Shown: one piece after another, positions 2,812 through 42,298 of the stretch
How the letters are laid out: each line of letters begins with the position of its first letter
Position numbering within the stretch: position 1 is the first letter of the stretch
Source of the DNA: Dyadobacter jejuensis
GTDB lineage: Bacteria; Bacteroidota; Bacteroidia; Cytophagales; Spirosomataceae
DNA length: 64,000 bases
Direction: 5' to 3'
NCBI RefSeq assembly: GCF_003149085.1
Contig: NZ_QGDT01000003.1
Coordinates: 1 to 64,000 of the forward strand
Position numbers and translations under genes: made by a program
The notes under the pieces: model-generated
Database searches by the model: none
Seen by the model: only the letters and a program-made list of their open reading frames with translations
Told to the model about the DNA's origin: nothing

Positions 2812-3396
2812 ATGATTACTTATCCCAAACGGTATCAAGAAAGTGAGCTCCTAGCCGAAGTGTCCGCCAATAACGAAGCGGCCTTTGTTAGGCTGTTTCA
2901 TCAATACCATCAATTACTGGGCACTTTTATTTTTAAAATCACCAAATCGAAAGAGTTAACGGAAGAGGTTGTTCAGGATGTTTTTCTTAAAATTTGGTTG
3001 AATCGAGAAACGTTAACGGAGGTGAAGGACTTCAAGGCCTACCTTTTTGTGGTGTCCAAAAATCATGCCCTTAATTGTCTAAAAAAACTGTCAAAAGAAT
3101 GTAGGTTGACGGTAACCTTGGACGAGGAAATAGGGTATGATCTGAGTGAGGGTAAACTGGATGACGAAATGTATGTATTCTTGGATGAGGCCATTGATAG
3201 ACTCCCTGCTCAACAGAAGAGGGTGTATCTGTTAAGCAGGCACGAAAGATTGAAATACAATGAAATCGCATTAAAACTAAATATCTCCAAAGAAACCGTT
3301 AAAAAGTATCTCCAATTGTCCTCCGAGTCCATATCGGTATATCTCCGCAGTAAAATTTCTACACTTGTTTCTGTGGTTTTCTTATTTATTTCCTAA
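2812..3396 (+). CDS. ECF sigma factor, FecI type
   Basis: A 194-residue RpoE/FecI-like sigma factor. Region 2 covers about residues 22-95, with LTEEVVQDVFLKIW and DFKAYLFVVSKNHALN. Region 4 covers about 120-175, with the helix-turn-helix LKYNEIALKLNISKETVKKYL. The last ten residues are strongly hydrophobic, as in many Bacteroidota FecI-like factors. It is followed after 87 bases by a FecR-type anti-sigma and then an STN-containing SusC, the standard trans-envelope signalling trio. When the outer-membrane receptor binds substrate, FecR should release this factor to transcribe the downstream susCD operon. Confidence 0.92.
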   Translation: MITYPKRYQESELLAEVSANNEAAFVRLFHQYHQLLGTFIFKITKSKELTEEVVQDVFLKIWLNRETLTEVKDFKAYLFVVSKNHALNCLKKLSKECRLTVTLDEEIGYDLSEGKLDDEMYVFLDEAIDRLPAQQKRVYLLSRHERLKYNEIALKLNISKETVKKYLQLSSESISVYLRSKISTLVSVVFLFIS

Positions 3397-3483
3397 AATT
3401 TCTATTTTCAATACCCCCTTTTTTGAGATTTTATTGTCTGTATAGTAAATGGCATATGGGCTGTTGGAAATAAGATCATATTC

Positions 3484-4665
3484 ATGAAAGAAGCGGTTTC
3501 AAAAATAGCAATATTATTTCAGAAGTATTATGGCGGAACGGCCACCATAGAGGAGACCAATGAATTGATGGAGCTCATAAATACTTCCCAATATGATTCA
3601 GAAATGTATCAGTTGTTGGAAGAGGCTTGGCGGAAAACTGAATTAGATGCGGATGTTTTTTCATCGGAGTTAAGTCAAAATATGCTGGACCATATACTAG
3701 ATACACAACTGGCCTATAAGGAACCGACAAGGACCCTCCCGATTTACAAATGGATGAAATATGCCGCTACTGTTTTGATTATATTGGGTATCGGACTGGG
3801 CATAAGCTATTGGCAGAGGAACCAGAAGCCAGTGAAGTTAAGCGATCATTCCACCCATGAAATTCTGCCAGGGGGCCATAAAGCGGCGTTGACCTTGGCC
3901 GATGGTACCATTATTCCATTAGATAGCCTGTCGAACGGAAAGCTAGCCGAGCAAGGAGGTGTAGTCATCACCAAGACTGAGAATGGTAAGCTTGTCTACA
4001 AGGTAGTCGGGCCGACGGAAGGGCGCATAAAAGGACATCTCAACAGCATTTCAACTCCAAGGGGAGGGCAATACGAAATTGAGCTACCTGATGGAAGTAT
4101 AGCCTGGCTAAATGCCTCATCTACGATGCGCTTCCCGACCGAGTTTGCTAAAGATGAGCGAAAAGTAGAGATTGAAGGAGAGGTATATTTTGAAATCAAG
4201 AAAGACATTCATCGGCCATTCAAGGTACGATTTGGCCCAAATGAAATCGATGTTTTAGGTACTCATTTTAATGTGATGTACTATTCGGATGAAGATCTTA
4301 CGGCAGCTACTTTGATAGAAGGCTCTGTACTTCTGAATACCAGTACGGCTAGGAACCAATTAAAACCTGGGCAACAAGCCTTGGTGAAGAATACGGGCCA
4401 GACGATCGTAAAAACAGTGGATACAGACAAAATTCTAGCTTGGAAAAACGGTTTTTTTCACTTTGAAGACGATGGCATCCAGTCGGTGATGCGACAGGTG
4501 TCAAGATGGTACGATATTGAGGTGGTGTACGAAGGGACTCCCACTTCGCGTCAGCTTACAGGAAAGGTATCAAGAGAGGTAGGTATCTCTGAATTGATGG
4601 AGATGCTGCAATATGCAGGTATTAAATACAGAATAGAAGGAAAAAGGATCATAGTGTCGAATTGA
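3484..4665 (+). CDS. FecR-family anti-sigma factor with DUF4974
   Basis: A 393-residue inner-membrane anti-sigma regulator. The cytoplasmic N-terminus (about 1-85) should bind the sigma factor. One transmembrane helix lies at about 90-108 (YAATVLIILGIGLGISYW). The periplasmic FecR domain spans about 185-290 and contains STPRGGQYEIELPDGS and LNASSTMRFP. A C-terminal DUF4974-type domain spans about 318-393 (GFFHFEDDGIQSVMRQVSRW). It sits between its sigma factor and the STN-SusC that should signal to it. A complete family member with no anomalies. Confidence 0.93.
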   Translation: MKEAVSKIAILFQKYYGGTATIEETNELMELINTSQYDSEMYQLLEEAWRKTELDADVFSSELSQNMLDHILDTQLAYKEPTRTLPIYKWMKYAATVLIILGIGLGISYWQRNQKPVKLSDHSTHEILPGGHKAALTLADGTIIPLDSLSNGKLAEQGGVVITKTENGKLVYKVVGPTEGRIKGHLNSISTPRGGQYEIELPDGSIAWLNASSTMRFPTEFAKDERKVEIEGEVYFEIKKDIHRPFKVRFGPNEIDVLGTHFNVMYYSDEDLTAATLIEGSVLLNTSTARNQLKPGQQALVKNTGQTIVKTVDTDKILAWKNGFFHFEDDGIQSVMRQVSRWYDIEVVYEGTPTSRQLTGKVSREVGISELMEMLQYAGIKYRIEGKRIIVSN

Positions 4666-32263: not shown

Positions 32264-33433
32264 TTGAAAATCGAACAAAACATAGAGAGGCTAAAGTACT
32301 TACTGACACTATTTAAGATGTCGGTTGAAGAACTTTTGCCTTTAATAAATGAAGGCTTGGCTAAGCCTATTACAAAAGAACAAATATTAAGCCCAAATAT
32401 TGAACTTGGGCACCTTAAAAGAATTGACAAGATTTTTAAGAAAGGTATCCATTACTATTTAGACCCTAAAGTTCCAGATGTTTCTAAAGATGCTAGCATC
32501 TTTTTTAGAAAAGCCAAATTCGATGTGAATTTAAGTTTGGGTGCTAGAATAATAGTAAATCATTTTGAAGAGTTTAAAATCTCCTTATCTGCAATTGCTG
32601 CACTTTCTGATATAAAATTTGACAGGATTTTGCCAGTGTTTACATTGAATAGCAATCCAAAAGAGGTTGCGGCAGAGGTGAGAAAATTAATTAGTCCTGA
32701 AGCAAAGATTAAGGATAAAGATTTTCTAACTGAGTTGATTAAAAAGCTTGCAGAGAAAAATATTTTTGTATTTGAGTTCGTGGAGACCTGGAATAAAAAA
32801 GAAAAGGCAAATATTGACGGTTTTTTCCTTCAACCAAATGTAATCGTACTCAAAAGGCAACAAACTTCTTTTAAAAGAGAAATATTTACTCTTGCACACG
32901 AATTGGGCCATTTTCTTCTGAATGAAGAGGAAATAGACCGAATAGATTATCAAGACTTCGCTAATGATAAATTATCAAAGATTGAATACTGGTGTAATGA
33001 ATTCGCTTTTTATTTTCTTGGTGGTGAATTTGTAAAGATCATTGAAACTATTGATCATTCAACGGCTCATAATGATTATAATATCGACCTAATTCGCTCA
33101 ATATCAGAAAGTACTCATTTAAGTAGAATTGCAATTTTTACAAAATTGCTTTTGCTTAACAAAATTAGTAGAGCTAATTATGACCATGTTAAGGCTGGAT
33201 TTGAAGAGGATTTTAGAATTAAAAATGACGAGCTTAAAAAGAAAAGAGAACTAGATAAACAGAATGGTATTATTTCAGGTGGTTCAACGCCATTGCCGAT
33301 TAAGTCTCCACTATTGGTATCGACTATCCAGACAGCATTTTACGAAGGCGTAATAAATGAGTATGAGTTTTGTAAAAAGTTAAACATAAAACCCGACAAA
33401 ATAGACCGCTTCCTCTATGAAAGTAGTAATTGA
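32264..33433 (+). CDS. ImmA/IrrE-family metallopeptidase
   Basis: A 389-residue soluble protein with a central zinc-peptidase domain: IFTLAHELGHFLLNEEE (H212-E-x-x-H216) and a downstream WCNEFAFYFLGG (E246 as probable third ligand). The first 150 residues are helical and resemble the regulatory part of XRE/IrrE-type antitoxins without a clear helix-turn-helix. IrrE/ImmA proteins cleave repressors or act as antitoxins. The only reasonable start is TTG 32264, because a stop codon precedes it by three bases. It overlaps the PIN-like gene by 17 bases. Both are AT-rich compared with flanking genes, suggesting acquisition. Confidence 0.85.
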   Translation: MKIEQNIERLKYLLTLFKMSVEELLPLINEGLAKPITKEQILSPNIELGHLKRIDKIFKKGIHYYLDPKVPDVSKDASIFFRKAKFDVNLSLGARIIVNHFEEFKISLSAIAALSDIKFDRILPVFTLNSNPKEVAAEVRKLISPEAKIKDKDFLTELIKKLAEKNIFVFEFVETWNKKEKANIDGFFLQPNVIVLKRQQTSFKREIFTLAHELGHFLLNEEEIDRIDYQDFANDKLSKIEYWCNEFAFYFLGGEFVKIIETIDHSTAHNDYNIDLIRSISESTHLSRIAIFTKLLLLNKISRANYDHVKAGFEEDFRIKNDELKKKRELDKQNGIISGGSTPLPIKSPLLVSTIQTAFYEGVINEYEFCKKLNIKPDKIDRFLYESSN

Positions 33434-33992
33434 CACCAGTTCTTTATTGTCATTGGTTCGGTATTACTTGCCATTTGACAAGAAAACGGTTTTATATGAG
33501 GCAATTATGTCAAAAATTGCAAATGGAGAAATATTAATTATTGATAAAATAATTGATGAGTGTGCCTATTTGTCTAAAGGGGTTGTCTTGTCTTTTCTTG
33601 CTTTTTTGACTGATAAAAAATTTACTAAAACGCATAAAGTCCCACTGAATACTGAATTTATTTTGCCGACTTCACCTGCTAAATTTTATCGAATGGTAGA
33701 TAACCAGTTTGTGAATGGTGTTCAGAAAAACCGACTAACTGAAACGCAATACGATTCTGTAAAAAACGATTTTATGAATTCGGCTGATATGAAATTGATT
33801 TTAACTAGTTTAAATGTTAAAAAAGATAATCCAACTGAGGAAATATATCTGGTTACGGAGGAAACTGAGATTAGTAATGACAACAAAGTATTCAAAAAGA
33901 TACCTGCAATTTGTTATCAATTAGGCATTAATACAATAAATATCCAACAACTGATCGTCAAGTTTGAAGGCCTAACCTTCGAAATAAGATAA
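33417..33992 (+). CDS. PIN-domain-like protein (DUF4411-like)
   Basis: A 191-residue protein beginning MKVVIDTSSLLSLVRYYLPF, which has the PIN nuclease opening with an acidic residue (D6) after a hydrophobic strand. A second acidic block follows at IIDKIIDECAYL near 45-55, and AD near 122. The layout resembles DUF4411 proteins, which are commonly found next to IrrE-type peptidases. If active it would be a metal-dependent RNase and the toxin of the pair. It overlaps the IrrE-type gene by 17 bases, indicating coupled translation. The family call is by motif memory and moderate. Confidence 0.65.
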   Translation: MKVVIDTSSLLSLVRYYLPFDKKTVLYEAIMSKIANGEILIIDKIIDECAYLSKGVVLSFLAFLTDKKFTKTHKVPLNTEFILPTSPAKFYRMVDNQFVNGVQKNRLTETQYDSVKNDFMNSADMKLILTSLNVKKDNPTEEIYLVTEETEISNDNKVFKKIPAICYQLGINTINIQQLIVKFEGLTFEIR

Positions 33993-34109: not shown

Positions 34110-34511
34110 ATGAAAAAGATTCTGGCAATCTTATTGGTCTTCTTCTATCTCGGTACTACATCGGGATTTAGCCTGCATATGCATTACTGCATGGGGGAGC
34201 TGATCGATTTGGGGCTTACGAAATCGGATTTTGAACATTGTGGAAATTGTGGAATGGAGAAAAGCCATTCGACGAAAAGCGGCTGCTGTAAAGAGGAATC
34301 GAAGAAAATTCAGACCGACGACGCCAGTCCCGGGGTCGATGCCGGTTTCAATACCTTGCTGCTGTCGCCTGCCGTGTTGGAAATGAAGATACTTCCGCCA
34401 TTCACTTTGACCACCGTCCTATCTCCCCAAAAGGATTACCCCGTCGGTCCGGCGCCACCCCGCAGTAAACCGATCCGAGTTTATAAGCTGAATTGTACCT
34501 ACCTCATTTGA
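34110..34511 (+). CDS. HYC_CC_PP family exported protein
   Basis: A 133-residue protein with a signal peptide (KKILAILLVFFYLGTTSG). The family name motifs are visible: HYCMGE near residue 26, GCCKEE near 61 and PAPPRS near 118. An extra CGNCGMEKSH motif lies between. The Cys/His content suggests metal binding, and such proteins often sit beside heavy-metal efflux genes, as here, directly before the CusA-like pump. The molecular role is not established. Confidence 0.85.
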   Translation: MKKILAILLVFFYLGTTSGFSLHMHYCMGELIDLGLTKSDFEHCGNCGMEKSHSTKSGCCKEESKKIQTDDASPGVDAGFNTLLLSPAVLEMKILPPFTLTTVLSPQKDYPVGPAPPRSKPIRVYKLNCTYLI

Positions 34512-34696: not shown

Positions 34697-34713
34697 CCGA
34701 CCCAGGGGGTCGG
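34697..34713. repeat. Hairpin in the cusA leader
   Basis: CCGACCC-AGG-GGGTCGG forms a 7-bp GC-rich stem about 35 bases before the cusA start. A second small GGCT/AGCC stem follows near 34720-34733. They could regulate translation or processing of the efflux mRNA. Confidence 0.35.
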
Positions 34714-34748: not shown

Positions 34749-36044
34749 ATGGTACATCATATAATTTCATGGTCCTTAAGGAATCGCTTTATCGTACTGA
34801 GCCTCGCCTTAGCGCTCTTGATATGGGGTGGATTTGCCGTCAAAAAGAATCCTATAGATGCCATCCCCGATCTATCCGAAAACCAAGTGATTGTTTTTAC
34901 GGAGTGGATGGGAAGGGGACCACAGCTCATCGAAGAACAGGTGACTTACCCCTTGGTTACGAACCTGCAGGGGCTTCCCAAAACCAAATATGTAAGAGGA
35001 ACCTCTATGTTTGGGATGAGCTTTATTTACATCATATTCGATGATGATGTGGACGTATACTGGGCTCGTTCCCGGGTGCTGGAGCGGCTGAGTACCGTAA
35101 CAGGCACTTTGCCCGAAGGGGTGACGCCCCAGCTTGGGCCCGATGGTACAGGCGTGGGCCATGTGCTATGGTATACCCTCGATGCGCCAGGCATGGACCT
35201 GGGAGAGCAGCCGGCGCTGCAAGACTGGTACATCAAGTTTGCCTTGCAAAATGTAGAAGGAGTGAGTGAGATAGCCTCCTTTGGTGGGTTCCAAAAGCAA
35301 TATCAGATCACAGTCGATCTCAATAAACTGCTGTATTACGGGCTTACCGTGCCGCAAGTGATAGGGGCCGTTCGCGCCAATAATAACGAGTCGGGTGGGC
35401 GGAAGTTTGAGATGAGCGATATAGGTTATATCATCAGAACCACCGGTTACCTGCAATCTATCGAGGAAATAAGTAGTATTCCTGTCCTCAACCAGAATAG
35501 CATACCAGTGCGAGTGTCGGATGTTGCGACCGTTCAAATGACCGGGGAGGCTCGACTGGGTATATTTGACCAAGATGGAGAAGGGGAGCGAGTGGGAGGC
35601 ATCGTGGTGATGCGCTACGGCGAAAATGCCGCTGAAGTTATAGAGAAGGTGAAGGCCAAGATGCTCGAGACGTCCAAAGGGTTTCCTAAAGGTGTGAAAT
35701 TCGATATTGTTTATGACCGGGGCAAGCTCATCCAGGAATCCATCGATTCTATCAAGCATACCCTCGTCGAGGAGATGATCGTGGTGTCGCTGGTGGTACT
35801 TATATTTCTATTTCACTGGCGCAGTGCCCTCAGCATCATTATTCAAATCCCCATTACGATTGCCGCCAGTTTTATCTTATTAAATGCCTTTGGGATTTCG
35901 TCTAACATCATGTCGTTGACTGGGATAGCCTTAGCCATTGGGGTCATTGTAGACAATGGTATCATCATGAGCGAAAATGCTTATAAGCACCTTTCGCAGC
36001 GCTATGAAGAGTGGCAAGAAGAGCAAAAAAAGACAATAATATGA
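34749..36044 (+). CDS. cusA: CusA/CzcA-type RND efflux pump, N-terminal half
   Basis: A 431-residue frame starting at ATG 34749 (MVHHIISWSLRNRF; an in-frame ATG at 34713 is less likely). It contains TM1, the KKNPIDAIPDLSENQVIVFT motif typical of heavy-metal RND pumps, the first periplasmic domain (GTGVGHVLWYTLD) and helices TM2-TM4, ending with the proton-relay helix LAIGVIVDNGIIMSENAY. It stops at TGA 36042 in the TM4-TM5 cytoplasmic loop. Family members are single proteins of over 1000 residues, so this is half a pump. The remainder continues in the -1 frame. The junction has the slippery A_AAA_AAG and an ATGA overlap, so frameshifting, coupled translation, mutation or sequencing error must be considered. 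Confidence 0.88.
   Translation: MVHHIISWSLRNRFIVLSLALALLIWGGFAVKKNPIDAIPDLSENQVIVFTEWMGRGPQLIEEQVTYPLVTNLQGLPKTKYVRGTSMFGMSFIYIIFDDDVDVYWARSRVLERLSTVTGTLPEGVTPQLGPDGTGVGHVLWYTLDAPGMDLGEQPALQDWYIKFALQNVEGVSEIASFGGFQKQYQITVDLNKLLYYGLTVPQVIGAVRANNNESGGRKFEMSDIGYIIRTTGYLQSIEEISSIPVLNQNSIPVRVSDVATVQMTGEARLGIFDQDGEGERVGGIVVMRYGENAAEVIEKVKAKMLETSKGFPKGVKFDIVYDRGKLIQESIDSIKHTLVEEMIVVSLVVLIFLFHWRSALSIIIQIPITIAASFILLNAFGISSNIMSLTGIALAIGVIVDNGIIMSENAYKHLSQRYEEWQEEQKKTII
36026..36032 (+). promoter_or_regulatory. A_AAA_AAG slippery heptamer at the cusA frame junction
   Basis: In the zero frame the codons read CAA AAA AAG, so the heptamer A_AAA_AAG is correctly phased for -1 slippage, as in E. coli dnaX. 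After slippage the next codons are GAC AAT AAT ATG AAC, which lead into the second half of the pump. The zero-frame stop follows at 36042. No convincing downstream stem-loop was seen; the upstream AGAAGAG stretch is purine-rich. Confidence 0.5.
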
Positions 36045-37975
36045 ACTGGTATAAAAAAAAGAAAGACATGATTCCAAGCTGGATTTCGGAGGAAGAGCGC
36101 TTGGCGATCATAGAGAAATCGAGCAAACAAGTGTCTCGTGGGGTATTCTTTGCCACCATTATCATCATTACCTCGTTTCTCCCGGTGTTTATGCTTACTG
36201 GGCAGGAGGGCAAGTTGTTTCACCCATTGGCCTATACCAAAACCTTTATTTTGGTAGTCGATGCCTTGCTGGTCATTACCCTGGCACCGGTCCTAATCTC
36301 CTTTATTTTGAAGGGGAAGTTCCGTCCCGATCACGAAAATCCGGTGAATAGACTATTAGAAAGGGTATATGAGCCGATTGTGAGGGCCGTCTTGAAGTGG
36401 AGAAAAACGACCTTGGCGGTCAATATAGTAGCCCTTTTGGCCACCATACCCCTACTAACTAGCCTCGGAACCGAATTTATGCCCCCCTTAGATGAGCAGA
36501 GTATCTTGTTTATGCCGGTTACCTTGCCCGATATTTCCAATTCGGAAGTCAAGAGAATCTTACAGGTTCAGGACAAAATTATTAAGTCGGTGCCCGAAGT
36601 AGAGACGGTACTGGGGAAGGCGGGACGAGCGAGTACGGCCACCGACAATTCGCCCATTAGCATGATCGAGACCATCATCAAGCTGAAGCCTAAGTCGGAA
36701 TGGCGCCCTTCCATCACCAAAAAGGATATCGTGAAAGAGCTGGATGCGAAGTTACAAATTCCGGGCGTGATCAACGGATGGACGCAACCCATCGTCAATC
36801 GTATCAACATGCTTTCTACGGGTATAAGGACGGATGTTGGGGTGAAAGTCTATGGGAAAAACTTGGATACCATTGCTAGGGTTTCGGAGAAGATAAAAAG
36901 TACCCTAGAAGGTACCGCCGGGATTAGCGATTTGTATGTGGAGCCTGTTACCGGTGGTAAATATCTTACCATAAGTCCTCGAAGGGAGGACTTAAGTAGG
37001 TATGGTCTTCGGGTCGATGACGTGAACGAGGCCATAGAATTTGCCTTGGGAGGGGCGTCCATTGCGAATACGATAGAGGGCCGGAAGCGGTTTTCAATCA
37101 ATGTAAGACTGGCGCAGTCTTATCGGAATAGCATAGAGACCATCAAGAGACTGCCGCTCATGTCGCCGGTCTTGGGGGAGGTTCCACTATCGGCGGTGGC
37201 CGACGTAGCCTTTGAAAATGGTCCGCCTATGATCAATTCCGAAAATGCCATGCTCCGAGGGGCCGTATTATTTAATGTACGTGAGCGAGATTTGGGGGGG
37301 ACGGTTCAAGAAGCCATCGAAAAAATGAGCCGGGCCAAAGGGATACTACCCCCGGGATACTATATAGAATGGAGTGGGCAGTACGAAAATCTGATCAGAG
37401 GACAACAAGCCTTAATCTGGATAGCACCATTGGTATTATTGATCATATTTTTGGCCCTTTATCTCGCATTTAACTCACTTAGAGAGGCCTTTCTTAGCCT
37501 TATTACGGTGCCGTTTGCACTCATTGGCGGAGCCTATATGATCTATTTTTGGGGTGTTAACCTTTCGGTAGCGGTGGCTGTAGGGTTTATAGCCCTTTTT
37601 GGAATAGCAGTGGAGACGGGAATTGTGATGGTGATCTACTTAAACGATGCGATGGCCCAATTGGTGAAGTCCAAGGGGAATTCGGCCGATAGTATCACTC
37701 CGGCCGACCTCCGAAAGTATGTCGTTCATGGGGCCGTAAAGCGGCTGCGTCCCAAATTGATGACCGTATGCGTTTCCCTGTTTGGACTGGTGCCCATCCT
37801 ATGGTCCAATGGCGTGGGGGCCGATGTGATGACGCCCATCGTGTTGCCGATGATTGGAGGGGTGTTGACTTCCTCTACCCATATTTTATTGGTAACCCCA
37901 TTGATTTTTCTAATGACAAAAGAATATGAGTTACGTAAATACGGAAAACTGCAGATCCATGATACCCAACATTAA
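36041..37975 (+). CDS. cusA: CusA/CzcA-type RND efflux pump, C-terminal half
   Basis: A frame of about 644 residues from ATG 36041 (MNWYKKKKDMIPSWI), whose ATG overlaps the previous TGA; the same frame is open back to GTG 36011. It holds TM5-TM6 (FFATIIIITSFLPVFMLTGQ), the second periplasmic domain (TPLIDE-equivalent GTEFMPPLDEQSILFMPVTL; METAL-site region with INMLSTGIRTDVGVKVYGK), and TM7-TM12 including IALFGIAVETGIVMVIYL. All C-terminal conserved parts are present and undamaged. There is no sign of decay beyond the frame break, which argues for function as a split or frameshifted pump. The tolC-like gene begins inside its last codons. Confidence 0.87.
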   Translation: MNWYKKKKDMIPSWISEEERLAIIEKSSKQVSRGVFFATIIIITSFLPVFMLTGQEGKLFHPLAYTKTFILVVDALLVITLAPVLISFILKGKFRPDHENPVNRLLERVYEPIVRAVLKWRKTTLAVNIVALLATIPLLTSLGTEFMPPLDEQSILFMPVTLPDISNSEVKRILQVQDKIIKSVPEVETVLGKAGRASTATDNSPISMIETIIKLKPKSEWRPSITKKDIVKELDAKLQIPGVINGWTQPIVNRINMLSTGIRTDVGVKVYGKNLDTIARVSEKIKSTLEGTAGISDLYVEPVTGGKYLTISPRREDLSRYGLRVDDVNEAIEFALGGASIANTIEGRKRFSINVRLAQSYRNSIETIKRLPLMSPVLGEVPLSAVADVAFENGPPMINSENAMLRGAVLFNVRERDLGGTVQEAIEKMSRAKGILPPGYYIEWSGQYENLIRGQQALIWIAPLVLLIIFLALYLAFNSLREAFLSLITVPFALIGGAYMIYFWGVNLSVAVAVGFIALFGIAVETGIVMVIYLNDAMAQLVKSKGNSADSITPADLRKYVVHGAVKRLRPKLMTVCVSLFGLVPILWSNGVGADVMTPIVLPMIGGVLTSSTHILLVTPLIFLMTKEYELRKYGKLQIHDTQH

Positions 37976-39215
37976 GCTGATTATTGGACTATTGATTATG
38001 GCATGGCCGGGGCTTGTCCATGCTCAGGACCCGAGGGTGTTGAGCCTTGACACGATAATAAGCCGAATAAGTCGGAACAATAGTCTGCTACAATCCTACG
38101 CGTTAAAGGCCGAGAGCTATGCGCACAGTGCCGACGCCGCCACTGCTTGGATGGCCCCTATGGTGGGGGTAGGAACTTTTATGACGCCCTATCCCGGTCA
38201 AAACCTGGGAGAAGGGGTCGGCAAAGGAAATGTCATGTTCGAAATAGCACAAGATATACCCAACCGAGCCAAGCTAGAGGCTAAGCGAAATTTTATTGGC
38301 TCTCAGGCCGATGTCGAAAGGGCTACTCGAGAGGTGACCCTGAATACCTATAAGGCCATGGCCAAGCGGCTATATTATAATTGGCTGATTGCCGATGCGC
38401 GCATAGGAGTCCTCCAGGAAAATGAACGACTATTGGTGTTAATGAAAAAGATAGAGGAGGTTAGGTATCCTTATAACCAGGTTGCGCTAGGAGGGGTGTA
38501 TCAGGCGGAGGCCAAAATTCTTGAAAATAGGAATAGGATGGTGATGCAAGAAGGTATTATTGGGAAGGCCAAGGGTTATTTGAACAGTCTGATGAATGCT
38601 GAAGGGAGTCATGACTTTACAATTGACACCACGCTGCATCCCAAATTTTTACCCACCGTTACTTATGATACTACCCTGCTGGCAGATACCAGGAAGGATA
38701 TATTTCAGATGGATGCTCGCATACGCACTATGAAGCTAAATATAGTTAGTAGCAGACAACAAAAGAAACCCGACTTTAAAATCCGGTTCGATCATATGTC
38801 CTCCCTATCGGCCATGATGCCCAATGCCTTTAGTGTAATGGGGATGATGAGTATCCCGATCGCCCCATGGGCCTCCAAAATGTATCAATCGGATATTAAA
38901 GCCATGCAGCTCAATGTAGCCGGTATGCAGAAGGAAAGGGCTGCTAAGTTGGTAGAAACCCAGGGGGCATTAGTTGGGATGCAAGCTGAAATTGGATCGA
39001 TCCAACAGCGACTGGCCACCATGGAGCAGAAAATTATTCCGGCCTTACAAAAATCGATGGACGCCTATTTTGCCAACTACCAGGAAAACAAAGAAAAGCT
39101 ATCGGTGGTGATCGATGCTTGGGAGGCACTTACGATGATGAAAATGACGGTGCTCGATGAGAAACTAAAACTTTATGAACGGATAGCGGATTATGAAAAA
39201 GAACTATATCGGTAG
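37959..39215 (+). CDS. TolC-family outer-membrane efflux channel (CusC-like)
   Basis: A 418-residue protein starting at ATG 37959 with signal IPNIKLIIGLLIMAWPGLVHAQ. Long amphipathic helices alternate with short strands, as in outer-membrane factors: DTIISRISRNNSLLQSYALK near the N-terminus and the two long coiled segments rich in A/E/K/Q. The C-terminal part contains YFANYQENKEKLSVVIDAWE. It forms the outer-membrane duct for the RND pump. It overlaps the pump's 3' end by 17 bases and the next adaptor gene by 23 bases, so the operon is tightly packed. Met-rich stretches (SAMMPNAFSVMGMMS) fit copper or silver export. Confidence 0.88.
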   Translation: MIPNIKLIIGLLIMAWPGLVHAQDPRVLSLDTIISRISRNNSLLQSYALKAESYAHSADAATAWMAPMVGVGTFMTPYPGQNLGEGVGKGNVMFEIAQDIPNRAKLEAKRNFIGSQADVERATREVTLNTYKAMAKRLYYNWLIADARIGVLQENERLLVLMKKIEEVRYPYNQVALGGVYQAEAKILENRNRMVMQEGIIGKAKGYLNSLMNAEGSHDFTIDTTLHPKFLPTVTYDTTLLADTRKDIFQMDARIRTMKLNIVSSRQQKKPDFKIRFDHMSSLSAMMPNAFSVMGMMSIPIAPWASKMYQSDIKAMQLNVAGMQKERAAKLVETQGALVGMQAEIGSIQQRLATMEQKIIPALQKSMDAYFANYQENKEKLSVVIDAWEALTMMKMTVLDEKLKLYERIADYEKELYR

Positions 39216-40488
39216 CCTAACAGTGGTGCTATTCATGACGATAGTGATATTGGCGGCCTGCCAATCGGAATCGGGTAAGGAGGACCATGCCCACCATGAC
39301 GAGCAAGGGTATACTTGCCCCATGCACCCTCAAATATTGGAGGAAAAGCCGGGGAAGTGTCCGGTTTGCAAGATGGACCTGGTGCCTAAAAGCGCCAGAC
39401 ATGAACTGACCCTTGACAGTACCTATGACGCTGCGTTGATGCCTGTGAATGAACAGGTGATATCACAGATTACGCTCGTTAGGGCGGATAGCGGCACCAG
39501 AATCATGAATGCCGAGGTGGAAGGTGTGGTCACCTACGATACCAAAAAACAGGTCAGGCTGGCCTCCAGAGTAGGGGGTAGAATGGAGCGCTTGCTGGTC
39601 AAGTACAATTACCAGCCCGTCTCTAAAGGCGAGCTGATCATGGAGATTTATTCCCCAGAATTAGCCTCCGCCCAGCGGGAGTTGTTGGTATTGCGAGGTG
39701 ATAGTAACAACCTGGCCTTATTCGAAAAGGCCAAACAACGGCTTTCACTCTTGGGTATGAGCCAAAGGGAGGTCGATCAGGTGTTAAGGACTGGGCAGGT
39801 GCAGTATAAGGTGCCGGTTTATAGCCCTACCAATGGGTATATAGTAGAAACAGCGGTGGCTCTTCCAAAAGCGGGTCTTAAGACTGTAGCCACTGCGGGT
39901 GCCGCGATGGGTGCCTCGGGGAATATTGGAGGGATGGTACCACCAGCGACTGCCTCAGTAAGCCTGTTGCGAGAGGGCCAATATGTAAGTTCGGGGCAAA
40001 CGCTCTTTACCCTGTACCAGTTAGATGCCCTCGTGGCCGAATTTGCCCTATCGGCCGATATCGCCTCCCAGGTGAAACATGGACAAAAAGTTTTTTATCA
40101 ACCTATCGGACAGGGCGATGTCCTGCTAAGCGGGAGTATTGGTCTCATCGATCCGGTTTTTCGGGCTGGCGAAAAGTTTAGCCTTATTCGAGTTTACACC
40201 AAGGACAAGAATTTAATTCCGGGGCAACTTCTGAAGGCCCGTATTCCACTGATCATGAGGGGAGGTTATTGGCTGAATGCTGCCGCACTGTGGCAAACGG
40301 GTACTAGTTCTGTCGTTTTCAAAGAGGAAGAGGGCGTGCTGGTCCCACACCAGGTAGAAACAGGGATCATGATGGATGGTCAGGTACAGGTATTGACCGA
40401 TATTGAAGGCTGGAAGATAGCCTCCAATGCGGCCTATTTGATTGACAGCGAGAGTTTTGTGAGGTATCAAGAAATTATAAAAAACTAA
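39193..40488 (+). CDS. RND periplasmic adaptor with heavy-metal-binding domain (CusB-like, first copy)
   Basis: A 431-residue lipoprotein (signal ending VILAAC). After a His-rich DHAHHDEQG stretch comes a heavy-metal-binding domain with YTCPMHPQI and GKCPVCKMDL. The adaptor part follows: beta-barrel and lipoyl-like segments (GVVTYDTKKQVRLASRVGGR), a helical hairpin (about 155-200) and YSPTNGYIVETAVALPKAG. It links the inner-membrane pump to the outer-membrane channel and may load metal. It overlaps the tolC-like gene by 23 bases. Confidence 0.9.
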   Translation: MKKNYIGSLTVVLFMTIVILAACQSESGKEDHAHHDEQGYTCPMHPQILEEKPGKCPVCKMDLVPKSARHELTLDSTYDAALMPVNEQVISQITLVRADSGTRIMNAEVEGVVTYDTKKQVRLASRVGGRMERLLVKYNYQPVSKGELIMEIYSPELASAQRELLVLRGDSNNLALFEKAKQRLSLLGMSQREVDQVLRTGQVQYKVPVYSPTNGYIVETAVALPKAGLKTVATAGAAMGASGNIGGMVPPATASVSLLREGQYVSSGQTLFTLYQLDALVAEFALSADIASQVKHGQKVFYQPIGQGDVLLSGSIGLIDPVFRAGEKFSLIRVYTKDKNLIPGQLLKARIPLIMRGGYWLNAAALWQTGTSSVVFKEEEGVLVPHQVETGIMMDGQVQVLTDIEGWKIASNAAYLIDSESFVRYQEIIKN

Positions 40489-40492
40489 GCTT

Positions 40493-41698
40493 ATGAAACG
40501 GAATGAGTTTATACTATTAGCCGCCTCATGGGTTTCAGGGGTGCTGCTGCTTGGCTGCTCGGCCGATCAGCAAAAGAGCGACCTGGCCAAGGTTACCTAT
40601 ACTTGCTCCATGCACCCTCAAATCGTTCAAAATAAGCCAGGCACTTGTCCCATATGTGGGATGGACTTGGTGGTAGTGGTTAACAGTACTTCTGGAGCCA
40701 CCATCACCTTGGGGCCTAGCCAAATGGCCTTGGCCAATATATCGGTAAGGCCTGTTGGAAAGGGGATGATGACTCATTCTAAGCCACTCAATGGTCGATT
40801 GGTAGTGAACCCCGAACGTACGACCGTGGTGTCGAGCCGAATAGCAGGTCGTCTGGAATTGCTGTATGTGAGAGAAACAGGAGTGAGGATAGCCCAGGGG
40901 CAGCCCTTATACAAAATATATTCGGAGGAGCTTGCTGCTTTACAACAGGAGTATCTTTTAGCGCATGAACAGGTAATCCAATTTCCGTTGGACTCCCGAT
41001 TTGCTGCCATAGAGAAGGCCTCCATTCAAAAGCTAAAGCGCTATGACCAGAGTGCTTCGGATATAGAAAATCTGAATCCGACGAAAAAACAGGAGCCTTA
41101 TGTACTATACCGTGCTCCCATGAGTGGTACGGTGGCCGATGTGGGCGTGTTCGAAGGCCAGTACGTGTCCGAAGGCAGTCCGATATTGCGCATCGAAAAC
41201 TATTCCACACTATGGGTAGAGGCCGATATATATCCAGAAGAAGCGCGGTGGGTAGGGAAAGGGAAAAAGGTGGAGGTGCAAATTCCTGGCTCGGAAGGAG
41301 ATGCTGTACCCATGACGATCGATTTTATTACTCCCGTTATTGAAAGTGCAGGACAAGTGGTCAGGGTAAGGGGCACCATTGCCAATAGTACCGGACAGTG
41401 GCAACCTGGGATGCAAGCACAAATACTATTGCCTGTCGAAGGCAAGACCGATGCTATCACCTTGCCAGTTGATGCGGTGATACGCGATAGCCATGGGGCA
41501 CAAGTCTGGGTTCAAACCAAGCCCGGAACCTTTACAGCCCGATCCGTAGGCCTAGGAATAGAAAATGACAAACAAGTAGAAATCATACATGGGCTATCAG
41601 AAGAAGATAAGGTGGTGGCGACGGGCGCCTATCTTTTGTACAGTGAATATATCTTAAAAAAGGGGGCTGACCCCATGGCAGCGCACCAACATAACTAA
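40493..41698 (+). CDS. RND periplasmic adaptor with heavy-metal-binding domain (CusB-like, second copy)
   Basis: A 401-residue lipoprotein (signal ending VLLLGC). The metal-binding domain reads VTYTCSMHPQIVQ and GTCPICGMDLVV. Then come the adaptor motifs: VSSRIAGRLELLYVRETG, the helical hairpin (about 130-190), LYRAPMSGTVADVGVFEGQY and VQIPGSEGDAVPMTIDFITP. It starts four bases after the first adaptor but is only distantly similar to it. Two adaptors in one operon suggest a mixed adaptor ring or separate metal-delivery roles. Confidence 0.9.
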   Translation: MKRNEFILLAASWVSGVLLLGCSADQQKSDLAKVTYTCSMHPQIVQNKPGTCPICGMDLVVVVNSTSGATITLGPSQMALANISVRPVGKGMMTHSKPLNGRLVVNPERTTVVSSRIAGRLELLYVRETGVRIAQGQPLYKIYSEELAALQQEYLLAHEQVIQFPLDSRFAAIEKASIQKLKRYDQSASDIENLNPTKKQEPYVLYRAPMSGTVADVGVFEGQYVSEGSPILRIENYSTLWVEADIYPEEARWVGKGKKVEVQIPGSEGDAVPMTIDFITPVIESAGQVVRVRGTIANSTGQWQPGMQAQILLPVEGKTDAITLPVDAVIRDSHGAQVWVQTKPGTFTARSVGLGIENDKQVEIIHGLSEEDKVVATGAYLLYSEYILKKGADPMAAHQHN

Positions 41699-41731: not shown

Positions 41732-42298
41732 ATGAAAAAGTTAATAAAATGGAGCATGCCTTTGGCTGTCGTATTTGTATTGTCGGCATGTAACGGACAG
41801 AAAAATCAGCAAGAAAATTCCCTTGATCACCACGATGGAATGGGCATGGAACAAACGGCAGAAATGCCGATGGAGGAAGTTCAAAAGGTGGTCATTAAGG
41901 ACGCCTCCCTGAATGCCGTGTATCAGCATTACGTACATTTGACTAATGCCCTCATCGATTCGGATGTGGCAGAGACACAATCAGCCGCAGCGGCCATAGA
42001 GGTAGGGATGAAGGATATGGGGGCATCTGAGAAAATGGTAAAAACAGCCGCTCAAATCACGGAGGCTAAGGACTTGGAAAAACAAAGATTACTTTATGCG
42101 ACGCTGAGCGACGATTTGATTCCCTTAATTAAAAAAGCGGGACTAAGTAGTGGAGAACTTAATGTGGATTTCTGTCCTATGGCCGGTGATCAAAAGGGAG
42201 CCTACTGGCTTGCCGGACATAAGGACATTAAGAACCCCTATATGGGCAGCAAGATGATGACCTGCGGGTCGGTTAAAGAGACCTTGAAAAAGTTGTAG
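41732..42298 (+). CDS. DUF3347 lipoprotein of the metal-efflux operon
   Basis: A 188-residue lipoprotein (signal ending VFVLSAC). A His/Met-rich linker (DHHDGMGMEQ) precedes the DUF3347 domain (about 55-140), which includes VYQHYVHLTNALIDSD. The C-terminal part has VDFCPMAGDQKGAYWL and NPYMGSKMMTCGSVKETL, with Cys and Met residues placed for metal binding. This combination is known from CusB C-termini and stand-alone periplasmic proteins near copper efflux genes. It is the last gene of the operon. Confidence 0.87.
   Translation: MKKLIKWSMPLAVVFVLSACNGQKNQQENSLDHHDGMGMEQTAEMPMEEVQKVVIKDASLNAVYQHYVHLTNALIDSDVAETQSAAAAIEVGMKDMGASEKMVKTAAQITEAKDLEKQRLLYATLSDDLIPLIKKAGLSSGELNVDFCPMAGDQKGAYWLAGHKDIKNPYMGSKMMTCGSVKETLKKL

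Follow-up and report, generated by a model that had tools for sequence, protein, structure and literature searches.

The copper and silver efflux pump CusA of Escherichia coli (PDB 3K07; HME-RND, TIGR00914) is one chain of about 1047 amino acids (aa), and to our knowledge proton-driven tripartite RND pumps are known only with single-chain protomers. MdtB/MdtC is a heteromeric RND pump with two pump genes in one operon, each of which encodes a complete one-piece RND protein. In dnaX of E. coli, the heptamer A_AAA_AAG drives a programmed -1 frameshift. The RND-fold machine SecD/SecF is found as a heterodimer and also, in fused form, as one chain (PMC8277102). We analyzed a window of 64,000 nucleotides (nt) from Dyadobacter jejuensis (contig NZ_QGDT01000003.1, positions 1 to 64,000), in which a CusA-type RND pump is divided over two overlapping open reading frames (ORFs), here called half 1 and half 2, next to a run of adenines. 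From sequence comparisons, we consider it very probable that this pump of the CusA (copper/silver) family is encoded by two genes, the second of which has the A-run in its start context. The break in the window recurs in many Bacteroidota and thus most likely reflects an ancient division of the pump that still functions, as opposed to a frameshifting device or gene damage.

Two reading frames that together cover CusA

The two ORFs, 431 and 644 aa in length, align with CusA from end to end. Half 1 matched residues 6 to 432 of the CusA chain (phmmer E value, 5.7e-124, with the query taken from position 34713), and half 2 matched residues 438 to 1043 (phmmer E value, 3.1e-160). On the Pfam model ACR_tran, the halves covered positions 1 to 423 and 418 to 1019, respectively. 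The break maps between CusA positions 432 and 438, so that almost nothing is missing. Because the two alignments end and resume there, the cut is placed in the cytoplasmic loop between transmembrane helices (TM) 4 and 5, on the TM topology that we assume for CusA and transfer to the halves by homology. Over positions 36024 to 36044, the zero-frame codons read CAA AAA AAG ACA ATA ATA TGA. Half 2 lies in the -1 frame relative to half 1, and that frame is open upstream to position 36008. The start of half 1 was set to the ATG at 34749 rather than to the mechanically assigned GTG at 34713 because relatives begin at the matching methionine, and half 2 was started at 36041 because the congeners align there. 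The initial annotation, made from the letters of the window alone, had described the heptamer, the -1 frame and the ATGA overlap correctly to the base; its placement of the break in the TM4-TM5 loop agrees with the CusA alignment, and its full length of about 1075 aa is the sum of the two halves.

The residues of CusA that we take to form the metal site (M573, M623, M672, and E625) and the proton relay (D405, E939, and K984) all have conserved counterparts in the window pump, and the corresponding columns show no variation in the alignments of 27 half-1 and 31 half-2 sequences. The TM4 relay aspartate is on half 1 (D402), while the Met triad (M158, M208, and M257) and the other relay residues (E525 and K572) are on half 2. 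The earlier statement that both halves retain all conserved motifs is kept for the seven residues checked. Among split relatives, four pairs without saturation gave dN/dS ratios of 0.019 to 0.031 for each half; the half-1 results for L052 and L054 (pN of about 0.72) were dropped as misalignments (L and G numbers are our handles for loci and genomes).

The likeness to CusA thus comprises the end-to-end alignment, the Met triad, and the relay residues, and the operon of the window also has TolC-like and CusB-like genes. The differences are that the present pump consists of two chains, with the division at the TM4-TM5 loop, that half 2 carries its own start and a basic N terminus, as in its relatives, and that neither half alone reaches the cut-off of the CusA/CzcA family model TIGR00914 (434.3 bits for half 1 and 610.3 bits for half 2; cut-off, 701.45). 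Like MdtB/MdtC, the locus has two pump genes in one operon, but here the protomer itself is split. The cut also differs from that of SecD/SecF, which has 2 x 6 TM (PMC8277102), in that it divides the present pump into 4 + 8 TM, inside the first repeat. Among the matches listed in searches of an open-access library, which lacks most subscription papers and preprints, none described a tripartite metal pump with a conserved cut within its first repeat, and the accessible parts of PMC8277102, PMC4446572, and PMC6847099 describe no split HME-RND pump.

Recurrence and arrangement of the two genes in Bacteroidota

Many genomes have the break at this same position. In a search of 59 relatives, all 10 half-2 places with at least 62% identity were in frames of 649 to 672 aa, and in a phylum sample of 395 genomes, all 29 places with at least 55% identity were in frames of 643 to 728 aa. 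The more distant half-2 places in the phylum sample were in frames of 1031 to 1101 aa, except one of 913 aa (G320; 52% identity, query 11 to 494), which looks truncated. The half-1 search of this sample gave 29 places in frames of 425 to 475 aa. The two halves therein are one-to-one, with 29 + 29 places in the same 24 genomes at the same copy numbers (compared by eye). Split and continuous forms are not cleanly distinguished by half-1 identity, as continuous genes reach 57% (G327) and the lowest split one has 56% (G065); G284 (54%, contig edge, frame of 426 aa) was left out of the split count. Several pairs of halves coexist in some genomes, for example, three each in G202 and G309. A genome scan, of which the best 80 of 572 loci were used, included the genera Dyadobacter, Chitinophaga, Pedobacter, Flavobacterium, Olivibacter, and Flavihumibacter. 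Within Dyadobacter, the region is present in 9 of 48 genomes, counting that of the window. Twelve plasmid records had a DNA match, and two permease genes are listed in seven of them, one in one, and none in four. The break, recurring at one place, is not due to chance.

The arrangement of the halves was compared over 89 unique adjacent junctions, taken from the 59-relative search, the genome scan, and the 395-genome sample only. Omitted from this count were 18 duplicates, the loci L024, L122, L124, L139, and L146 (no half-1 match in that search), and the unsplit loci L149 to L154; plasmid loci L167 to L171 and some additional loci were examined apart. Half 2 was in the -1 frame with overlap at 62 junctions, in the +1 frame with overlap at 17, and without overlap at 10, of which 4 were in frame 0 with an intervening stop. 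The stop and start formed ATGA at 39 junctions and overlapped otherwise at 10; they were 0 to 12 nt apart at 33, 13 to 90 nt apart at 2, and more than 90 nt apart at 4, with no ATG at 1 (half-2 starts were picked by a simple rule). Gaps between the halves measured 71 nt in L073, 83 nt in L133, 230 nt in L113, and 307 nt in L097. At L055, and likewise at L132/L165 (one locus), an ORF with a methyltransferase domain (Pfam Methyltransf_11/25) stands between the halves. Genomes G248 and G264 have the reversed order half 2, TolC-like gene, adaptor, adaptor, half 1 (the middle genes were named by eye from the sequence). In G041, other genes come after half 1 on its contig, and half 2 opens a different contig, so that what precedes it is unseen. 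The halves exist as independent, separate genes, and the gapped, gene-interrupted, reversed, and unlinked arrangements are ones that no one-base slip could yield.

The trees (FastTree local supports) place one-piece members within the split clade, namely, L228, L229, and L231 (G774, G531, and G461), L230 (G455), and L243 to L245 (G829, G926, and G950). The reversed-order pair L212/L213 is also nested in this clade (pair support, 1.00). The split clade without L148 had a support of 1.00, and some inner nodes were weak (minimum, 0.07 in one tree and 0.13 in another). By parsimony, the tree needs at least four changes, as one split followed by three re-fusions. Repeated independent splits would need about eight changes (counted by eye), and one split is therefore tentatively preferred. 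The nested one-piece relatives, the one-to-one co-occurrence, and the conservation of relay and metal-site residues over both chains together suggest that the two halves act as one pump.

Several observations were made in passing at these loci. The methyltransferase ORFs between the halves of L055 (about positions 3280 to 3967) and L165 (minus strand) differ from each other and belong to two distant lineages, and a Hymenobacter radiodurans plasmid (L167) has an annotated class I methyltransferase upstream of its pump. On the same plasmid, half 2 matches as two pieces in different frames (L167:3001-4997), only a part of 1098 nt is annotated, and this copy looks broken. Spirosoma linguale plasmid pSLIN01 carries both halves in its DNA (L169:1548-4911) with no gene listed, and the gene table passes over the tag Slin_6821. 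Locus L112, from a metagenome record that bears the name of the actinobacterium Williamsia sp., has a split pump of the typical Bacteroidota kind, and the bin is probably misnamed.

Start context, frameshifting, and decay at the junction

The initial annotation had offered programmed -1 frameshifting at A_AAA_AAG as one outcome, in which a full-length pump would be made as in dnaX and the two-part product would be a by-product. The locus does share with dnaX a genuine heptamer in the correct frame; the overlapping -1 relation is the commonest one in the family, and the one-piece relatives indicate that a joined protein is tolerated. However, A_AAA_AAG in a usable position was present at only 1 of the 62 overlapping -1 junctions, that of the window, and any X_XXY_YYZ heptamer within the last 60 nt was present at 8. 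None of the eight other congeners with the region has the heptamer; six have ATGA, and two have TAA-TT-ATG. Of the two junction elements, ATGA is shared by most congeners and the heptamer is not conserved. The zero frame of L055 also has A_AAA_AAG, but 686 nt and another gene come next. The heptamer is unremarkable by chance, with four in-frame copies in the 19,091 codons of the 39 long ORFs of the window, one of them inside half 2 (36055 to 36061). No stimulatory hairpin was found at the right distance; the predicted hairpin starts 36 nt past the heptamer, with a z score of -1.65, and 12 of 200 shuffled sequences fold as well. Unlike dnaX, the present locus thus has neither a conserved heptamer and frame relation nor a suitably placed hairpin, and a -1 slip cannot join halves with a frame relation of +1 or 0, or halves that are gapped, interrupted by a gene, reversed, or unlinked. 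We consider frameshifting very unlikely as the source of the pump, and a minor slipped product may be made in the present strain alone. A_AAA_AAG is read here as a by-product of Gln-Lys-Lys codons and an A-rich start context.

Bacteroidetes mRNAs are without Shine-Dalgarno sequences, and ribosome profiling of Flavobacterium johnsoniae gave an A-rich motif at -14 to -11, with A at -3, -6, -12, and -13 promoting initiation (PMC6847099). Because the A-run of the window covers motif positions where A is reported to promote initiation, it is best read as the Bacteroidota initiation motif of half 2 and not as a frameshift signal. In 82 unique half-2 start contexts, the counts of A at these four positions were 59 (-3), 48 (-6), 65 (-12), and 61 (-13), and A was the most frequent base at the positions of the A-run. 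The prevalence of ATGA, other overlaps, and spacings of 0 to 12 nt suggests coupled termination-reinitiation, by which half 2 would be made by ribosomes just finishing half 1. Such coupling is not universal, because reversed-order genomes exist. A two-subunit pump made by termination-reinitiation was another of the outcomes proposed from the window; its two chains are strongly supported, and we infer the reinitiation step from the ATGA at 39 of 89 junctions.

A third outcome is that a one-piece gene was broken at the A-run, either by a recent inactivating mutation or by an error of sequencing, and it would fit the fact that homopolymer runs are prone to such errors. It is contradicted by the presence of the break in many genomes of other orders that lack the run, by a half 2 with its own start and basic N terminus like that of relatives, and by the low dN/dS in relatives, indicating purifying selection on both halves there. 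We give it next to no credence. That the halves are separate proteins no longer forming one pump, with one a leftover or in another role, for example, is very unlikely. The halves are indeed out of their usual adjacent order in three genomes, but the one-to-one pairing in the phylum sample (29/29) takes in G248 and G264, and G041 also has both halves. Relay residues that are needed jointly are divided between the halves and do not vary in the aligned sets, and one-piece relatives stand inside the split clade.

Some results weigh against the two-gene reading or limit it. In one profile search, 4 of 64 family places and one outgroup place were one-piece, with G585 as a further, truncated case, and in another search 3 of 56 places were one-piece (the remaining rows were classed by frame length). 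The split is thus common and not universal. The node joining the basal split L148 to the rest was weak in three trees (0.58, 0.76, and 0.80), and more than one split is therefore possible. Synonymous sites are saturated between the window and its relatives, so that dN/dS comes from pairs of relatives only. AlphaFold models of the single halves were of low confidence (means, 61.6 and 63.9), probably owing to shallow alignments, and add no support. G041 is a draft of 160 contigs, and the 89 junctions are not independent, as many come from close relatives.

Operon setting and meaning of the split pump

The two halves belong to a Cus-type operon, in which a TolC-like gene comes next, then a pair of CusB-like adaptors that carry heavy-metal-binding domains, and then the gene of a DUF3347 protein (Table 1). 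No second copy of the split pump gene was found in the genome with the DNA around the break or with the half-2 protein: the 300-base stretch around the break is present a single time, and the next-best half-2 match has only 33% identity. The family search of the genome gave 11 further full-length ACR_tran places and one weak partial place.

Table 1. Features of the split pump locus, in window coordinates
Feature	Position	Strand	Description
Small HYC_CC_PP family protein, immediately upstream of pump	34110..34511	+	NCBIfam NF047658, 48.6 bits vs cut-off 28
Half 1 (CusA-N), first pump gene	34749..36044	+	431 aa; TM1, first periplasmic porter/docking region, TM2-TM4; phmmer, Pfam ACR_tran
A-run	36025..36031	+	-16 to -10 of half-2 start codon; A also at -6 and -3
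A_AAA_AAG heptamer	36026..36032	+	Zero frame of half 1; seen directly in sequence
ATGA stop/start overlap, half 1/half 2	36041..36044	+	Seen directly in sequence
Half 2 (CusA-C), second pump gene	36041..37975	+	644 aa; TM5-TM12, second periplasmic region; phmmer, Pfam ACR_tran
TolC/CusC-like outer membrane factor gene	37926..39215	+	Pfam OEP PF02321; overlaps half 2
CusB-like periplasmic adaptor with heavy-metal-binding domain	39193..40488	+	Pfam HlyD_D23, HMBD
Second CusB-like periplasmic adaptor with heavy-metal-binding domain	40493..41698	+	Pfam HlyD_D23, HMBD
Small DUF3347 protein downstream of adaptors	41732..42298	+	Pfam PF11827

Further features of this genome and window were noted. Two other RND genes of the genome (L007 and L008) have open frames of 1467 and 1462 aa, which exceed a pump alone. 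The window pump differs from those of congeners L046 to L051 at 82 to 90% of synonymous sites, which is above random codon choice, with proteins that are 86 to 89% identical; this excess is perhaps due to a strong shift in codon usage or an old transfer. The ORFs at 32264 to 33433 and 33417 to 33992 overlap, the first with a HELGH zinc-peptidase-like motif (by eye), and the pair is possibly a toxin-antitoxin or stress module.

In the two-gene model that we favor, the first gene would supply TM1 to TM4 and the first periplasmic region, and the second gene would supply TM5 to TM12 and the second periplasmic region. Ribosomes ending half 1 at ATGA would start half 2 by recognizing its A-rich context. 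The two chains would then co-fold into one protomer, and three protomers with the TolC-like and CusB-like proteins would form the pump. Its proton relay would be built across chains, with D402 on chain 1 and E525 and K572 on chain 2. A bolder proposal is that these pumps are a widespread, obligate two-chain class of RND metal pumps, in which the TM4/TM5 cut is functional, the TM1-TM4 and TM5-TM12 blocks are exchangeable modules, the halves are dosed separately or mixed, and the gene has repeatedly been split and rejoined; we regard this as rather doubtful.

For annotation, split pairs miss the cut-off of the CusA model and appear in some records as two permease subunits or are left unannotated, and the A-rich start context of Bacteroidota genes can mimic a slippery frameshift site. 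If the two-gene reading is true, a tripartite RND pump is evolutionarily maintained as two independently translated chains, cut within one repeat and sharing the relay. The family would then offer a natural system for testing RND assembly, in which the two blocks could be expressed and labeled separately.

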